A stretch of 64,000 nucleotides of DNA from Rhodococcus sp. KBS0724 (GTDB taxonomy: Bacteria; Actinomycetota; Actinomycetes; Mycobacteriales; Mycobacteriaceae): positions 2,390,001 through 2,454,000 of the forward strand of contig NZ_VCBX02000001.1 of the NCBI RefSeq assembly GCF_005938745.2, read 5' to 3'. Shown piece by piece: positions 3 through 7,963 of the stretch. The notes under the pieces are model-generated. The model was not told where the DNA came from. It searched no databases and saw only the letters and a list, made by a program, of their open reading frames with translations. Position numbers and translations under genes: made by a program. Position 1 is the first letter of the stretch. Every line of letters starts with the position of its first letter.

Positions 3-752
3 TCGCCGACGGAGAAGTTTCCACCGGTGAATGCCGGCAATTCGTTACCGCGAACCGACGACGATCTCGATTTCGGTTCAGCGCAAGCGAATTCCGTGAC
101 CGAACAAATCCCGACATATCGTCCGGGGTCACTTGATAAACCGACTGAGGTGCTCACACGCGATACTGCGTACGAGATGCCGGCCGATCCGGTGGCGGTT
201 GCGGACCCGATTCCGGTGACCGAGGAGCCGCGTCCGAGTCGAGGAACGTTGGATCTCGGACTTCTTGCGCTCCGGTTGGCGGTGGGCGGCACCGCGTTGG
301 TGCATGGCTTGCAGAAGTTGACGGGTATCTGGAACGGCCCGGGGCTGGGCGGTTTCGAAACGATGTTGGCTGAGGCGGGATTCGAGCAGGCAAAGTTGTT
401 GGCCATTCTGGGTGCGGTCGGCGAGGTTGCTGGTGGCGCCCTGCTGATCCTGGGTCTGTTGACCCCGATTGCCGCAGCGTCGGTGCTGGCCGTGATGATC
501 AATGCGTGGGCGCTGCGCCAATTGGCCGAGCCCGGCCTCGAGTACTTTGCGCCCAGCGGAACCGAGTACGAGATGCTGTTGGGGATCTGCGCTGGTGTCA
601 TCATTCTCACGGGGCCTGGGCGAATTGCGCTCGATGGCCGTCGTGGTTGGGCGAAGCGGCCTTTCATCGGTTCGCTGGTCGTGTTGATTCTGGGTATCGG
701 CGCCGGCGTGTGCACGTGGATCTTCCTGAACGGGGCGAACCCGCTCATTTGA
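3..752 (+). CDS. DoxX family membrane protein (5' end open)
   Basis: Small integral membrane protein of the DoxX family, similar in type and position to Rv3005c of M. tuberculosis. Its biochemical role is not settled; DoxX proteins have been linked to redox homeostasis. The frame stays open to the window edge, so the true start may lie upstream; the first start inside is GTG at 27. About 75 hydrophilic, acidic, Pro-rich residues come first, then four hydrophobic segments: one with the family-like stretch ALVHGLQKL, a pair around residues 120-160, and a last one ending CTWIFL near the C-terminus. It converges on the permease gene, and a shared hairpin separates them. The family call is good; function is unknown. 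Confidence 0.8.
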   Translation, partial: SPTEKFPPVNAGNSLPRTDDDLDFGSAQANSVTEQIPTYRPGSLDKPTEVLTRDTAYEMPADPVAVADPIPVTEEPRPSRGTLDLGLLALRLAVGGTALVHGLQKLTGIWNGPGLGGFETMLAEAGFEQAKLLAILGAVGEVAGGALLILGLLTPIAAASVLAVMINAWALRQLAEPGLEYFAPSGTEYEMLLGICAGVIILTGPGRIALDGRRGWAKRPFIGSLVVLILGIGAGVCTWIFLNGANPLI

Positions 753-2773: not shown

Positions 2774-3727
2774 ATGATCCAGGCCCACCTCGACGCGTTG
2801 CACGGGCTTCCGGCCTTCGACTTCCCGGCTGCCGACGCGACGGATTCTGCGTTGCCCGCTGCCGGTACTGTGGCGTGGCGCATCTCGGTGGAACCGTATG
2901 CGGACGACTCGGAGGAGTTTTCCGATGCCTGGGATCGGTTTGTCGAGAAGGTCGACCTGTCAGCGGTGCAGGCTCTGATCATCGGCCAGTGGGGTGAGTC
3001 GTACGAGGTCAACTCGTCGTCGATCGTGGAACTGACTGTCGGGCAACGTCACCGGTTGACATCGCTGCGCGCGCTGTTCCTTGCGGATATCACGCAAGAG
3101 CAGCAGGAGATTTCCTGGATTCAGCAGTCCGATGTCACTCCCGTCCTCGAGGCGTTTCCGGAGTTGGTCGAATTCGGCATTCGTGGTGGCACGGAATTAG
3201 AGTTCCCGGAAACGCGTCACGCTGCGTTGCGCCGGTTGACCATCGAGTCGGGTGGACTGCCCGCCGCGGCTGTCCGCGGCGTGGCATCGAGTAGCTTTCC
3301 CGCTCTCGAGTTTCTCGATCTGTGGCTCGGGACCGAGGGTTACGGCGGAGACGCTGATGTCGATGATCTGGCTGTCATTCTCGGCGGCGCGAAGCTACCG
3401 TCGTTGCGTCACCTGGGATTACGTAACAGTGAAATCCAGGACAGCATCGCCAAGGCGATTGTCGAAGCTCCGATTCTCCGCCAATTGACCACATTGGATC
3501 TCTCGATGGGCACACTCTCGGATGACGGTGCCGCAGCTCTCCTTGCCAGTACGGCTTTTTCAGGTCTCGAGTTCCTCGACCTGCATTACCACTTTCTCAG
3601 CGACGCCACGGTTGCAGAGTTGACCAGGCATTGCGCCGAGCTAGGGGTGCGGGTCGATCTGTCCGATCAGACCGAGCCGGATGAGTACGACGACGAGATC
3701 TCGCGATATGTCGCAGTCTCCGAGTAA
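2774..3727 (+). CDS. STM4015-family LRR-like protein
   Basis: First gene of the five-gene cassette, 317 aa, no known function. The N-terminal half shows no fold I recognise. The C-terminal half (from about residue 170) reads as leucine-rich repeats of the ribonuclease-inhibitor type: FPALEFLDLWLG, LPSLRHLGLRNSEI, LRQLTTLDLSMGTLSDDGA and FSGLEFLDLHYHFLSDATV. It ends in an acidic tail with DEYDDEISRY. No signal peptide is seen, so it should be cytoplasmic. The start was set at ATG 2774 because AAGGAG (2762-2767) lies six bases upstream; a TTG at 2759 would include the ribosome site in the coding region. It overlaps the next gene. The STM4015 label rests on gene order plus the LRR-like form; a role as scaffold or substrate for the neighbouring enzymes is inference. 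Confidence 0.75.
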   Translation: MIQAHLDALHGLPAFDFPAADATDSALPAAGTVAWRISVEPYADDSEEFSDAWDRFVEKVDLSAVQALIIGQWGESYEVNSSSIVELTVGQRHRLTSLRALFLADITQEQQEISWIQQSDVTPVLEAFPELVEFGIRGGTELEFPETRHAALRRLTIESGGLPAAAVRGVASSSFPALEFLDLWLGTEGYGGDADVDDLAVILGGAKLPSLRHLGLRNSEIQDSIAKAIVEAPILRQLTTLDLSMGTLSDDGAAALLASTAFSGLEFLDLHYHFLSDATVAELTRHCAELGVRVDLSDQTEPDEYDDEISRYVAVSE

Positions 3728-4835
3728 TTCTTCGGTGTTTTCTTCCCATCAAAAATTGGTGGTCATCGGAGTTCCGGGCAACCGTCGGGTGTCGGGATTT
3801 GTCGATGCAGTTACGGCAGCGGGATTGCCGGCGCCGCGGGTCCTGGGTTGGCGTCAGATTATCGGTCGAGACTACGGATTCGATGCCGGCGAGATTGTTC
3901 GAATCGATTCGCCCGGCGAAGATTCCGTGGTCGATCGATATCTTCGCGGGACGCACGAGTCGACCCGGGTTGAGGGCACGAGCACGTGGTATCGGCGATT
4001 CTCCACCGAGATTCGCGAGATTGCCGATCGAGCAGATCATGCTGGTGCTCGTGTTCTCGGTGACGCGGACGAGATTGCGGTGATGTTCGACAAACGTCGC
4101 TGCCATCGCCGTCTCGACGCTGCTGGGGTGCGTGTCCCCGCAGCGTTGGACACTGCGCCTGGCAGTTATGCCGAACTCGAGCAACTCGCAGCCGACGCAC
4201 ACATGTCGCGTGTGTTCGTCAAGCTGTCTCACGGCTCGTCGGCGTCGGGAGTGATTGCGCTGCAATGGGGTCCACGCGGGCAGGTTCGCGCCGTCACCTC
4301 GGTGGAAGTGGGTGCTGACGGTGCGCTGCACAACTCACTCCGAGTGCGCACGTATCGAACGACGGCAGCCGTCGCGTCAATCGTCGATCGACTCGCACTC
4401 GACGGACTTCACGTTGAAGCGTGGATACCCAAGGCGTCACTCGGCGGCCGGACCGCCGACGTTCGTGTGGTGGTTGTCGGAGGTGTCGCCACCCATGCGG
4501 TAGTGCGGACCAGTGCTTCTCCGATTACCAACCTGCATCTCGGCGGTACCCGCGGCGCACTTGCCGACGCGATGTCTGTTGCAGGCGAGAATTGGTCACA
4601 GCTCCTGGAATTGAGTGAGCGGGCAGCAGCGTGTTTTCCGGCAGCACCACACGTCGGAATCGACATCCTGCCCGGTGTCGGGTGGCGGCGCTTCACAGTA
4701 GGAGAGGTCAATGCGTTCGGAGATCTCCTGCCCGGGCTCACCGGTCTGCCCGGCGGCCCCGCCGAAGGTATGACTACGTATCAAGCGCAAGTTGATTCGC
4801 TACTGGAATCGGAAAACATGGAGTATGCCCGGTGA
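3708..4835 (+). CDS. STM4014-family ATP-grasp protein
   Basis: Predicted ATP-dependent carboxylate ligase of the ATP-grasp fold, 375 aa, reaction unknown. The N-terminal domain begins with LVVIGVPGNRRVSGFVDA. Next come FDKRRCHRRLDAAGV (ATP-grasp lysine region), VFVKLSHGSSASGV (glycine-rich loop over ATP), DVRVVVVGGVATHAVVRTS, and HVGIDILPG followed by VGEVNAFGDL, which places Asp, Glu and Asn where RimK-like ligases bind Mg-ATP. The start is uncertain: ATG 3708 (GAGA nine bases upstream, 20-base overlap with the previous gene) or ATG 3681 (47-base overlap). It overlaps the next gene by four bases. No membrane segments or signal peptide. Confidence 0.75.
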   Translation: MSQSPSNSSVFSSHQKLVVIGVPGNRRVSGFVDAVTAAGLPAPRVLGWRQIIGRDYGFDAGEIVRIDSPGEDSVVDRYLRGTHESTRVEGTSTWYRRFSTEIREIADRADHAGARVLGDADEIAVMFDKRRCHRRLDAAGVRVPAALDTAPGSYAELEQLAADAHMSRVFVKLSHGSSASGVIALQWGPRGQVRAVTSVEVGADGALHNSLRVRTYRTTAAVASIVDRLALDGLHVEAWIPKASLGGRTADVRVVVVGGVATHAVVRTSASPITNLHLGGTRGALADAMSVAGENWSQLLELSERAAACFPAAPHVGIDILPGVGWRRFTVGEVNAFGDLLPGLTGLPGGPAEGMTTYQAQVDSLLESENMEYAR

Positions 4836-5671
4836 ACAACCTCAATACGAGTCACCCCGACATGAATGAGGTCGTGGGGCAGGACGACATCCTGTTGCTC
4901 ACGTTGGACACGCTCCGCTACGACGTTGCGTGCGAGTTGGCGGCGAGCGGGCGCATCCCGACGCTTGCGTCGTATCTGCCAGGGGGAGTGTGGGAGAAGC
5001 GGCACGCACCAGGAAGTTTCACGTACGCCTCTCATCAGGCGATCTTTGCGGGTTTCCTCCCAACGCCCGCCAGTCAGGGTCCACACCCACGATTGTTTGC
5101 CGCACGATTTGCGGGGAGTGAATCCACCGCAGACGGAACGTATGTGTTCGAGGGCCCCAATGTGGTGGACGGATTGCGAGCGGCCGGCTATCGCACCGTG
5201 TGTATCGGCGGGGTCGGGTTCTTCAACAAAGCGGCACCCCTCGGGTCGGTGATGCCCTCGATGTTCGACGAGAGTTATTGGGAATCGCGCTTCGGAGTGA
5301 CGTCGCCGGAATCCTTCGAGGCGCAAGTCGAGTGCGCCGAGACGGTGGTCGCCGGTCTGGAACCGGACCAGAAGCTTTTCTTGTTCGTCAATGCCGCTGC
5401 GCTACATCAACCTAATTGGTTTCACCGTGCCGGCGCGAGTGCCGATTCGGGAGATACCCTTGACTCTCATGCTGCCGCACTCGAATACATCGACCGGCAT
5501 ATCGCAAAACTTCTGCAGGCCATGAGTTCACGGCGGCGCTGCTTTGCCATCGTCTGTTCCGATCACGGTACGGCGTACGGCGACGACGGCTGGACCGGGC
5601 ACCGGCTAGGTCACGACAGCGTGTGGACGGTTCCCTATGCACACTTCTTCGTGGAAGGTCCACAACAATGA
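4832..5671 (+). CDS. STM4013/SEN3800-family hydrolase (alkaline-phosphatase fold)
   Basis: Predicted metal-dependent hydrolase of the sulfatase/alkaline-phosphatase superfamily, 279 aa, substrate unknown. LLLTLDTLRYD (D26, D31) matches the first metal-binding strand. FTYASHQAIFAGFLP places Thr64 or Ser67 where the nucleophile would sit, but the sulfatase C/S-x-P-x-R signature is absent, so a true sulfatase is unlikely. CSDHGTAYG (D244, H245) and GHRLGHD (H257, H261) supply the second metal site. The protein is short for the superfamily and lacks an export signal. GTG 4832 overlaps the upstream stop in a GTGA and ATG 5668 of the next gene overlaps its stop in an ATGA, so the cassette is translationally coupled here. 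Confidence 0.78.
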   Translation: MNNLNTSHPDMNEVVGQDDILLLTLDTLRYDVACELAASGRIPTLASYLPGGVWEKRHAPGSFTYASHQAIFAGFLPTPASQGPHPRLFAARFAGSESTADGTYVFEGPNVVDGLRAAGYRTVCIGGVGFFNKAAPLGSVMPSMFDESYWESRFGVTSPESFEAQVECAETVVAGLEPDQKLFLFVNAAALHQPNWFHRAGASADSGDTLDSHAAALEYIDRHIAKLLQAMSSRRRCFAIVCSDHGTAYGDDGWTGHRLGHDSVWTVPYAHFFVEGPQQ

Positions 5672-7008
5672 GTCTCGCAGTTGCGGTACGTCCGTACCAG
5701 AATTATGTTTATGCGTATCCGCACAAGACGGCATACCGGCCGCTTGATCCCCGGCCGTCGTTGCAGAAATTGTGGGCGCCAGAGCCGAAAAACGCACTGT
5801 CGCTGTACCTCCATATTCCGTTCTGCGAGGTTCGCTGCGGGTTCTGCAATTTGTTCACCCGTATCGGCGCACCGGGTGAGATGACCACCGCGTACCTCGA
5901 CGCACTCGAGCGGCAAGCACGTGTTGTGTCGGATGCCGTCGGCGGCGGAACTCACTACGACGCAGTGGCCTTCGGTGGCGGCACCCCGACCTTTCTCGAC
6001 GCCCCCGAACTCGACAAACTGTGCGACGTCGCGGAACTCCGCATGGGTGCCGATCTTTCATCCGTTCCGTTCTCAGTCGAGGCGTCACCGTCGACGGTAA
6101 CCGCCGATCGGATGTCGGTGCTGGCCTCCCGCGGAACCACCCGTCTGAGTTTAGGAGTGCAGAGCTTTATCGACTCCGAGGCCAGGGCAGCGGCGCGTCC
6201 GCAGAAGCGGGCCGACGTCGACGCGGCGCTCGGGCGGATCCGGGACGCTCGAATTCCCGTGCTCAACATCGATCTCATCTACGGGATCGACGGTCAGACC
6301 GAGCAGACCTGGCGGCAGTCCCTCGATGCGGCGTTGGCGTGGGAACCAGAGGAGTTGTATCTGTATCCGCTCTACGTTCGGGCGCTCACAGGTCTGGGTA
6401 AGAAGGCAGCGGTCGCAGAATCCGATGCGGAGTGGGACGAGCGTCGTCTGCGCTTGTATCGGTTCGGCCGCGACTATCTCGAGCAGGCGGGATATCAGCA
6501 GGTCTCGATGCGCATGTTCCAGCGCAGCGGCGCGGTCATCGACGGGGCCACCGATTACGCGTGCCAGACCGACGGCATGATCGGATTGGGATGCGGCGCA
6601 CGCTCGTACACGGCAAACCTTCACTATTCGTTCGACTACGCGGTCGACATGCGGGAAATCCGCGGGATCATCGACACGTTCATCGCCCGTCCGGCAGACG
6701 AGTTCGCTTACGCCGAAGTCGGTCGATTCATGACTCCTGACGAGACGCGTCGCAGGCACCTCGTCCAGTCGGTGCTTCAGGCCGAAGGAATGGATGTAGC
6801 CGACTATCGCGCGCGGTTCGGAACACACCCTGCCGACGACTTTCCGGACGAATTGAATGGTTTCGAGGCAGCGGGTTGGTTGGCGGGTGACCTGCAATCC
6901 GATCGACTGATGCTCTCGCCGGAAGGTTTGGCGTACTCCGACGCTATCGGTCCGGCGTTATTCTCGGCGAGTGTTCGACGGGACATGTCGGAGTACGAGG
7001 CCAAATGA
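5668..7008 (+). CDS. STM4012-family radical SAM protein (HemW-like)
   Basis: Radical S-adenosylmethionine enzyme, 446 aa, resembling coproporphyrinogen dehydrogenase and HemW but of unknown function. The cluster motif CEVRCGFC (C53, C57, C60) is CxxxCxxC. It is followed by the HemW-type motifs FGGGTPTFLD, LSLGVQSF and DLIYGIDGQTEQTW. A C-terminal winged-helix-like part runs from about residue 350. The start is ATG 5668 (AGGTC region upstream, ATGA overlap with the previous stop); a GTG at 5623 would overlap the hydrolase gene by 49 bases. HemW itself normally sits near hrcA/dnaJ or lepA, so this cassette position argues for a different job. Confidence 0.82.
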   Translation: MSLAVAVRPYQNYVYAYPHKTAYRPLDPRPSLQKLWAPEPKNALSLYLHIPFCEVRCGFCNLFTRIGAPGEMTTAYLDALERQARVVSDAVGGGTHYDAVAFGGGTPTFLDAPELDKLCDVAELRMGADLSSVPFSVEASPSTVTADRMSVLASRGTTRLSLGVQSFIDSEARAAARPQKRADVDAALGRIRDARIPVLNIDLIYGIDGQTEQTWRQSLDAALAWEPEELYLYPLYVRALTGLGKKAAVAESDAEWDERRLRLYRFGRDYLEQAGYQQVSMRMFQRSGAVIDGATDYACQTDGMIGLGCGARSYTANLHYSFDYAVDMREIRGIIDTFIARPADEFAYAEVGRFMTPDETRRRHLVQSVLQAEGMDVADYRARFGTHPADDFPDELNGFEAAGWLAGDLQSDRLMLSPEGLAYSDAIGPALFSASVRRDMSEYEAK

Positions 7009-7901
7009 ACCCCTCGCTGTCGATTCTCTACCGTGGTCCGTTGGCGAGTTGTAATTACGACTGCCCGTACTGCCCGTTTGCGAAGCGCCGTGACCCGCCG
7101 GCTGAATTACGAGCGGACAGAGCATCGTTGGAGCGGTTTGCCACCTGGGTCACCGAGCAGACCGATCGACAGTTGTCCGTGCTGTTCACGCCCTGGGGGG
7201 AGGCGTTGGTGCGGTCCTGGTATCGCCGCACTCTCGCGGAGCTGAGCTGGTTGCCACACGTCGAACGGGTTGCGATCCAAACCAATCTCAGCGCTCGCAC
7301 CACGTGGCTTGCCGACGCCGACCCGTCGACGCTGGCGCTGTGGTGCACATTTCATCCGGGACAGATCTCGCTCGAGCGATTCCTTGCAAAATGCGGGGAA
7401 CTCGACCGAGGCGGCATCCGCTATTCGGTGGGGGTCGTCGGATTCCCGGAGCATCTCGATCTGGCCCGCGAGCTGCGGCAGAAACTGTCTGAGAACATCT
7501 ATCTGTGGGTGAATGCAGCCGAGGGACGGGTGTATTCGGACGCCGAAGCGCAGTTGTGGACCGAACTCGATCCGCTTTTCCCGTTCAGCCGACACCCGCA
7601 TCCGAGCGTCGGAAAGGCCTGCAGAACCGGAGAATCCGTCATCTCTGTCGACGGAGACGGCACCATTCGGCGGTGCCACTTTGTTCCCGAGGAGATCGGA
7701 AATCTGTACGACGGCAGTCTCGACACAACGCTGACCGCCCGAGACTGTCCAAAAGCGCTGTGTGACTGTCACATCGGCTACGTGCATCTCGAATCGCTCC
7801 CGCTCTACGACGCCTTTGCCGGCGGAGTGCTCGAGCGGATACCGGCCGTGCTGCCGAGTTCGCGAGTGAGCGGAGCGCTGCCCCTACACGTCGTGCGTTG
7901 A
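7005..7901 (+). CDS. STM4011-family radical SAM protein
   Basis: Second radical SAM enzyme of the cassette, 298 aa, function unknown. The N-terminal CNYDCPYC (C16, C20, C23) binds the SAM [4Fe-4S] cluster. FTPWGEALVR near residue 62 corresponds to the GGEP-type SAM-binding strand. The C-terminal third has five further cysteines (C206, C224, C248, C253, C255), with CPKALCDC at the end: the pattern of a twitch/SPASM-like auxiliary Fe-S cluster as in peptide- and protein-modifying radical SAM enzymes. ATG 7005 overlaps the previous stop in an ATGA. It is the last gene before a strong terminator. Confidence 0.82.
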   Translation: MNPSLSILYRGPLASCNYDCPYCPFAKRRDPPAELRADRASLERFATWVTEQTDRQLSVLFTPWGEALVRSWYRRTLAELSWLPHVERVAIQTNLSARTTWLADADPSTLALWCTFHPGQISLERFLAKCGELDRGGIRYSVGVVGFPEHLDLARELRQKLSENIYLWVNAAEGRVYSDAEAQLWTELDPLFPFSRHPHPSVGKACRTGESVISVDGDGTIRRCHFVPEEIGNLYDGSLDTTLTARDCPKALCDCHIGYVHLESLPLYDAFAGGVLERIPAVLPSSRVSGALPLHVVR

Positions 7902-7906
7902 AACAG

Positions 7907-7947
7907 AAGATCCCCGGCCGCGCGATGTCAACGCTGCCGGGGATCTT
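7907..7947. terminator. bidirectional terminator between the cassette and ilvD
   Basis: A 12-bp perfect stem (7907-7918 with 7936-7947) around an 17-base loop closes the five-gene operon and serves the convergent ilvD. Confidence 0.75.
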
Positions 7948-7963
7948 CGCTAGCTCGTGCTAC

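Follow-up and report, generated by a model that had tools for sequence, protein, structure and literature searches.

We analysed a window of 64,000 nucleotides of Rhodococcus sp. KBS0724 (positions 2390001-2454000 of a 7.25-Mb genome) that carries a cassette of five plus-strand genes. We propose that this cassette acts on one of its own products. The first gene (2774..3727) encodes a 317-aa leucine-rich-repeat (LRR) protein of the STM4015 family (378 bits against an NCBIfam cut-off of 275), the proposed substrate or carrier. It is followed by a 375-aa RimK/LysX-like ATP-grasp ligase of the STM4014 family (3708..4835; 413 vs 175 bits), a 279-aa alkaline-phosphatase-fold hydrolase of the STM4013/SEN3800 family (4832..5671; NF038075, 407 vs 250 bits), a 446-aa HemN-like radical S-adenosylmethionine (SAM) enzyme of the STM4012 family (5668..7008; NF006067, 624 vs 380 bits), and a 298-aa twitch-type radical SAM enzyme of the STM4011 family (7005..7901; NF038073, 409 vs 200 bits). 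All five products exceeded the curated cut-offs in hidden Markov model comparisons, and the families and their order, STM4015-4014-4013-4012-4011, are those of the Salmonella run, which bears out the labels given in the initial annotation of this DNA. With the starts chosen here, neighbouring genes overlap by 20, 4, 4 and 4 bases along the cassette, in agreement with the five overlapping same-strand genes and three four-base overlaps described earlier. The first start codon after a stop would instead be, for example, TTG 2759, ATG 3681 or GTG 5623, and the overlap between STM4013 and STM4012 measures four bases because ATG 5668 was taken as the start.

The five genes form a conserved unit. When genome contigs were scanned with an alignment of STM4011, 461 relatives were confirmed; the 80 best of them, all from actinomycetes, were analysed. 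The gene order of the window, with STM4015 either single or multiple, was kept in 73 of these 80 loci. Four of the seven exceptions (L014, L024, L027 and L034) are clusters cut at contig ends, a fifth (L044) holds all five genes together with an extra overlapping frame that was counted as a second STM4012, and the last two (L016 and L084) have apparently real gaps in the run. Co-occurrence in other genomes was one point on which the initial annotation had staked its proposal beforehand; the genes do co-occur, and as a set they do so far beyond chance. Among 101 Streptomyces genomes, STM4015, STM4014 and STM4011 were over the cut-off in 45, 42 and 43, respectively, and all 41 genomes with both STM4014 and STM4011 also contain STM4015. 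Likewise, across 326 genomes assigned to the Streptomycetaceae by inference, STM4015 was found in 157, STM4011 in 151 and both in 149; STM4015 occurred without STM4011 in eight genomes and STM4011 without STM4015 in two. The latter two speak against perfect co-occurrence: G555 retains STM4012 and STM4011 (L123), and G231 only STM4011 within the fetched stretch (L105). The cluster of a further genome, G281, is broken (L104).

STM4015 has the fold of an LRR solenoid of about 300 residues. An acidic linker (approximately residues 297-310; 3662..3703, plus strand), the length of which varies among relatives, leads to a conserved C-terminal tail, R-Y-V-A-V-S-E-stop (3704..3727, plus strand). A degenerate pattern of this tail plus the stop matched the 7.25-Mb genome only once, at STM4015 itself. 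A terminal Glu was present in 115 of 115 in-cluster STM4015 copies, in all of the best 120 of 2,136 STM4015 homologues (mostly named Streptomyces), and, in a listing across phyla, in 115 of the best 120 of 235; of the five exceptions there, three are short sequences that do not reach the tail, one ends in unrelated sequence and one in STM4014 sequence. The tail usually reads R-[YF]-[VT]-[AS]-V-[GSA]-E behind an acidic stretch in actinomycetes, NAMLTE or YPMLTE in what are apparently mostly Bacillota, MYTE or MFTE in enterobacteria, and ITE in Bacteroides. No tail position other than the final Glu was invariant in a set of 108 sequences, which had been pre-filtered for a Glu ending and whose 108 of 108 Glu is therefore not counted as evidence for that residue. 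In 47 hand-picked full-length sequences, all Glu-ending, E317 is one of 11 invariant columns; the other invariant or near-invariant columns include one His and no Arg or Lys, so that a structural salt bridge for the terminal Glu is not evident. Since Glu is invariant and no other tail position is, no other side chain is available at the end of every copy.

Six diverged tandem STM4015 copies are found in L067 (Actinomadura rifamycini) and five in L069 (Yinghuangia), and every one of them ends in Glu. Furthermore, 13 of 120 listed STM4015 proteins contain a WGR domain, which is N-terminal in the four that were scanned; binding is a common role of both LRR and WGR domains. Because the tail is constant while the recognition parts vary, a modified protein seems a likelier end product than a mere carrier.

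Genomes that contain STM4015 and no intact STM4011 provide a natural control. Nine were retained, namely the eight of the 326 that were positive for STM4015 and had no STM4011 at E 1e-30, minus G322, which does have the cluster, its STM4011 and STM4012 being broken up into several reading frames (L118), plus G282 and G306 from the sample of 101 Streptomyces, the latter with a small remaining STM4011 fragment that contains a stop. STM4014 was searched in G241, G306 and G282, none of which had it over the cut-off; in the other six, the remaining cassette genes were checked within about 6-7 kb on each side of STM4015. The leftover STM4015 kept a [GSAT]E end in two of the nine genomes, compared to 114 of 115 in-cluster copies (Fisher 4e-9, uncorrected for relatedness), which amounts to loss of the canonical tail in seven of nine. 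Any terminal Glu was retained in 4/9 vs 115/115 (Fisher 6e-7, likewise uncorrected). At 36 LRR key positions, 83-97% (mean 91%) were retained in the leftover copies, the in-cluster mean being 97.5% (n = 106). Outlying copies, which lie outside the run in cluster-bearing genomes, kept the tail in six of nine cases. Instead of the Glu tail, the outlying STM4015 of L093, L095 and L096 share the ending I-[SC]-V-G-P-[LV]-[TS]-Y, and they perhaps represent a separate functional branch.

Two alternatives were tried and set aside. Retention of the tail through overlap with the next gene does not fit: in 30 of 115 pairs, the STM4015 stop is followed by the first aligned codon of that gene only after 30 nt or more, and six of nine outlying copies retain the tail as well. 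A small precursor peptide, sought solely in the form of other tail-bearing open reading frames (ORFs), was likewise rejected: one such ORF was present among 16,992 locus ORFs, and the pattern occurs once in the host genome. The single locus ORF, in L043 (5209-6420) and outside the called STM4015 set, ends in a tail-like FVAVSE and is possibly part of a second copy.

STM4014 is predicted to have an ATP-grasp fold of the RimK/LysX kind. An hhalign comparison with E. coli RimK gave E 3.5e-6 over 200 columns, rimK_fam and LysX were weak NCBIfam matches, and LysX was among the best, albeit weak, solved-sequence matches, level with biotin carboxylase. The AlphaFold model of STM4014 (predicted local distance difference test, pLDDT, 93.2) matched ArgX-LysW, RimK, LysX-LysW-gamma-AAA and RimK-RpsF structures at ranks 1-8. 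The Bacteroides STM4014 also matches the alpha-L-glutamate ligases MptN and CofF, below cut-off. In the alignment, the RimK residues that hold the terminal Glu, R189 and N262, are matched by Arg253 (4464..4466, plus strand) and Asn335 (4710..4712, plus strand) of STM4014, both invariant in 44 sequences and in seven from several phyla. This numbering comes from a paper on Pseudomonas RimK, which describes a contact between R189 and Glu E5 (PMC10092738), and the same positions were read on the E. coli sequence.

The initial annotation had recognised a metal-hydrolase site, two CxxxCxxC clusters and extra C-terminal cysteines in STM4011; all are present here and do not vary in alignments of seven to eight sequences from several phyla. 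The auxiliary-cluster cysteines of STM4011 (C206, C224, C248, C253 and C255, with CX4CXC at the end; 7620..7769, plus strand) are invariant in seven sequences and at least 97% conserved in 87. STM4011 thereby has the feature of twitch/SPASM peptide maturases, CX3CX2C plus auxiliary-cluster cysteines, and its best solved relative is the twitch domain of SkfB (E 3e-4), with anSME weaker (E 0.03). CX4CXC is the signature named for SkfB, and the auxiliary cluster of SkfB is reported to be in fact a [2Fe-2S] cluster held by CX33CXC (PMC6231123); any cluster type read from the motif in STM4011 is thus tentative. STM4012 matches HemN (1olt, E 1e-52) and the methyltransferase NocN (9p2u, E 4e-33), and it remains under the cut-offs for HemN (136.7 vs 325 bits), HemW (140.6 vs 205) and ChuW (143.5 vs 400).

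The metallo-hydrolase motifs of STM4013 are present and invariant in an eight-sequence alignment, as is the predicted nucleophile Thr64 (5021..5023, plus strand), which HMMER aligns with the Thr of nucleotide pyrophosphatase/phosphodiesterases, the nearest solved sequences. Formylglycine sulfatases use Cys or Ser as nucleophile, and STM4013 has neither at this position. Because the residue is Thr, phosphoester chemistry is likelier than sulfate ester hydrolysis, which upholds one half of the earlier suggestion of phosphate or sulfate ester hydrolysis and makes the other less likely. In the Salmonella and E. coli copies inspected, and unlike in the window, an extra HAD-IIB phosphatase gene follows STM4011. 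Furthermore, a plasmid copy from Bacteroides finegoldii encodes STM4011 and a HAD-IIB domain as one fusion protein (L127, 7328-8893), and STM4013 and STM4012 are fragments only at that locus. The phosphatases in or near the cassette suggest a phosphorylated donor or intermediate.

We propose, with a probability of roughly 55%, that the LRR protein is modified at its C-terminus by the enzymes encoded with it in the cassette. We infer that STM4014 would activate a carboxylate of the Glu that ends STM4015, at the expense of ATP, and would join to it an amine, either an amino acid or an amino sugar, much as RimK modifies ribosomal protein S6 and LysX modifies LysW. STM4011, the twitch enzyme, and the HemN-like STM4012 would then rebuild the added group or the Glu itself, while STM4013, through its Thr nucleophile, may handle a phosphorylated donor or intermediate, joined by the HAD phosphatase in the enterobacterial copies inspected and, fused to STM4011, in the broken Bacteroides copy. 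The final product may stay on STM4015, which would make it a modified effector or adaptor, or may later be released, which would make it a carrier; we somewhat favour the product staying on the LRR protein. The gene identities and the conserved run put forward in the initial annotation are supported; its shared modifying pathway had been given either a protein or a small molecule as substrate, with the LRR protein counted as one part among others, where the evidence points to the C-terminus of STM4015 as the substrate. Taken to its full extent, as a mobile, widespread system in which the ATP-grasp enzyme loads the Glu of the LRR protein and the two radical SAM enzymes build a new group that remains there, the proposal is tentative. 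If true, STM4015 would combine recognition by its LRRs with a warhead or cofactor built into its C-terminus, and tandem copies, differing in their LRRs, would deliver one and the same group to different targets.

Several observations weigh against C-terminal modification. The tail is probably docked or ordered rather than the free arm expected of a ligase substrate: the last two 10-residue blocks of the STM4015 AlphaFold model have pLDDT values of 94 and 95, which do not support a free flexible tail, and the homologous part of the crystal structure 2ra8 (Q64V53_BACFR) ends in ITE and aligns to the model through residue 317. The tail-loss comparison is small and its related genomes are not independent. 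Canonical tails survive in two of the nine leftover copies, three of the nine outlying copies in cluster-bearing genomes have lost theirs, the contrast between leftover and outlying copies is not significant (p = 0.15), and the LRR part of the leftover copies has also drifted somewhat. By score STM4014 is not a member of the RimK family (TIGR00768; 22.5 bits vs a cut-off of 143.4), and other ATP-grasp enzymes are 1.5-4 Z units under its top structure match. Finally, the five genes include no release peptidase.

A confidently predicted tail that is seemingly ordered in 2ra8 is also what a structural or docking element would look like, packed on the LRR solenoid or on an enzyme, with STM4015 as an adaptor and STM4011-STM4014 making a free small molecule; the WGR domains of some STM4015 proteins suit such an adaptor. 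We nevertheless regard this explanation as unlikely. Full invariance is limited to the last residue while the remaining tail drifts, the LRR part is largely conserved where the tail was lost in genomes without intact STM4011, and the kin of STM4014 ligate amino acids to a terminal Glu. Within C-terminal modification itself, STM4015 could serve as a carrier on whose terminal Glu a metabolite is built before a host peptidase releases it, like lysine on LysW. This version holds the smaller share of the probability given above and is slightly more doubtful than a structural tail. LysW-type carriers end in Glu as STM4015 does, in an EDWGE motif, and work with LysX (PMC10433800 and PMC9303977), and LysX/ArgX-LysW complexes are among the closest structure matches of STM4014. 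However, the missing peptidase counts against release, up to six diverged STM4015 copies per locus (L067) seem needless for a mere carrier, and STM4015 has an LRR fold where LysW has a small zinc-binding globular domain. STM4015 also lacks EDWGE, its tails being RYVAVSE, xxMLTE, MYTE and similar. The LysW pathway proceeds through a kinase, a reductase, an aminotransferase and a peptidase, whereas the downstream enzymes of the cassette are radical SAM enzymes and a phosphoesterase.

Less probable still is a ribosomally synthesized and post-translationally modified peptide (RiPP), in which the C-terminal peptide would be a core that radical SAM chemistry modifies, that the ATP-grasp enzyme perhaps cyclises, and that is finally cleaved off. 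NocN acts in a RiPP pathway, as SkfB does, and the conserved tail follows a variable acidic stretch. With its CxxxCxxC and twitch CX4CXC, STM4011 indeed resembles SkfB, but the last seven residues of STM4015 have no Cys for thioethers, either in the window or in the copies listed, so that the product would not be a sactionine. Only the Glu is invariant, the five genes encode neither a peptidase nor an exporter, and the tail is preceded by a folded part of 300 residues rather than by the short leader expected of a RiPP.

C-terminal modification of STM4015 also differs from its other nearest precedents. Compared to RimK, STM4014 is below the family cut-off, has an LRR protein as partner and is encoded alongside two radical SAM enzymes. 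Pearlin pathways use an aminoacyl-tRNA-dependent ligase and a short peptide, whereas the cassette uses an ATP-grasp enzyme and a large LRR protein. Similarity lies in the building of a group on the C-terminus of a carrier polypeptide (TglA/TmoA), and the tmo pathway has a radical SAM methyltransferase (PMC9303977). The structure 2ra8 is an uncharacterised structural-genomics entry for which no paper was found.

No paper on the function of STM4011-STM4015 was found in the open-access literature, in line with the earlier statement that no function is assigned, so that the second condition under which the initial annotation would have failed, known families of unrelated function, does not apply either; the names appear without function in tables of PMC2784778 and PMC3844500. 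The main text of a graspetide survey (PMC8939145) contains neither leucine, LRR nor STM4 names, and the passages of PMC4431377 covered do not name LRR. The conserved STM4015 tail with its invariant Glu, the RimK/LysX-like STM4014, the SkfB-like signature of STM4011 and the loss of the canonical tail in most leftover copies are new. With 2,136 STM4015 relatives in one protein search, the cassette is common, yet its families bear placeholder names. Should STM4015 indeed be modified at its terminal Glu, a direct test of this orphan five-gene system becomes possible, and the cassette would combine C-terminal ligation by an ATP-grasp enzyme with radical SAM chemistry, both acting on a folded repeat protein. 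We did not find such a combination described in the open-access literature.

Beyond actinomycetes, cassette copies were found in Bacillota, Deinococcota and Pseudomonadota, with a broken copy in Bacteroidota. A tblastn search with STM4013 returned 16 plasmid records, nine of which were inspected. Six carry the full run in order, from Paenibacillus, Salmonella, Methylobacterium, two Deinococcus and Streptomyces fungicidicus, while two, from Streptomyces albidoflavus (L003) and Kitasatospora (L008), have an isolated STM4013 homologue, and the ninth is the broken Bacteroides copy. Genes around the Salmonella 'plasmid' copy include typA, glnA and yih genes, and it shares the neighbours ompL, typA and glnA with an E. 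coli chromosomal copy; it is therefore weak evidence of mobility. The Paenibacillus, Methylobacterium, Deinococcus and Streptomyces plasmid copies, together with the broken Bacteroides one, substantiate the transferable unit that had been suggested from the sequence alone. The presence of the cassette is patchy: STM4011 was over the cut-off in six of 217 genomes of the phylum, host genome included, against the 43 of 101 in Streptomyces, and both radical SAM genes occur in 154 of 5,426 E. coli genomes, the two copies inspected being flanked by ompL and typA. In one E. coli isolate, an IS1 element lies within STM4012 (L126, 2986-5001) and the other four genes are not flagged as broken. The isolated STM4013 homologue of S. 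albidoflavus (L003, 8693-9729) is near CRISPR-Cas type I-E genes, a NUDIX gene and a 'lasso peptide B2' annotation. The Kitasatospora record has three tblastn STM4013 places; at the one inspected, cassette profiles matched STM4013 only.

Many actinomycete, Deinococcus and Methylobacterium copies, unlike the window, add a pair of genes beside the cassette, for a DUF6745 protein and a protein of about 100 aa with a GEVTGHSH/EEH-like pattern (for example L005 4498-5823, L006 11019-12340, L007 3171-4635 and L009 10949-12246). These proteins are present in 61 and 62 of the 80 actinomycete loci, respectively, and profiles found neither in the window, so they were rejected as obligatory core parts; DUF6745 has one match elsewhere in the host genome. 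Most DUF6745 proteins end in P-x-x-[EQ]-T, two from Deinococcus end in EA, and one Deinococcus copy has weak LRR-type matches.

A PADLOC scan for anti-phage defence returned no convincing model, the only matches being PDC-M51A (6e-7, to part of STM4012) and a weak pVip (0.036). A phage origin was rejected, with no PHROG match at E 1e-3 and no relative confirmed in one scan of viral contigs with STM4013. The flanking permease described previously is an amino-acid permease encoded upstream of the cassette on the opposite strand (843-2378); downstream lies a convergent ilvD. Between STM4011 and ilvD, the feature earlier called a terminator is an inverted repeat with 17-bp arms (7906..7948), at which a terminator scan reported no T-tract terminator. 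Near the start of the window (27-752), a small protein weakly matches the HvfX RiPP-maturation family (22.9 bits, far under the cut-off of 80).

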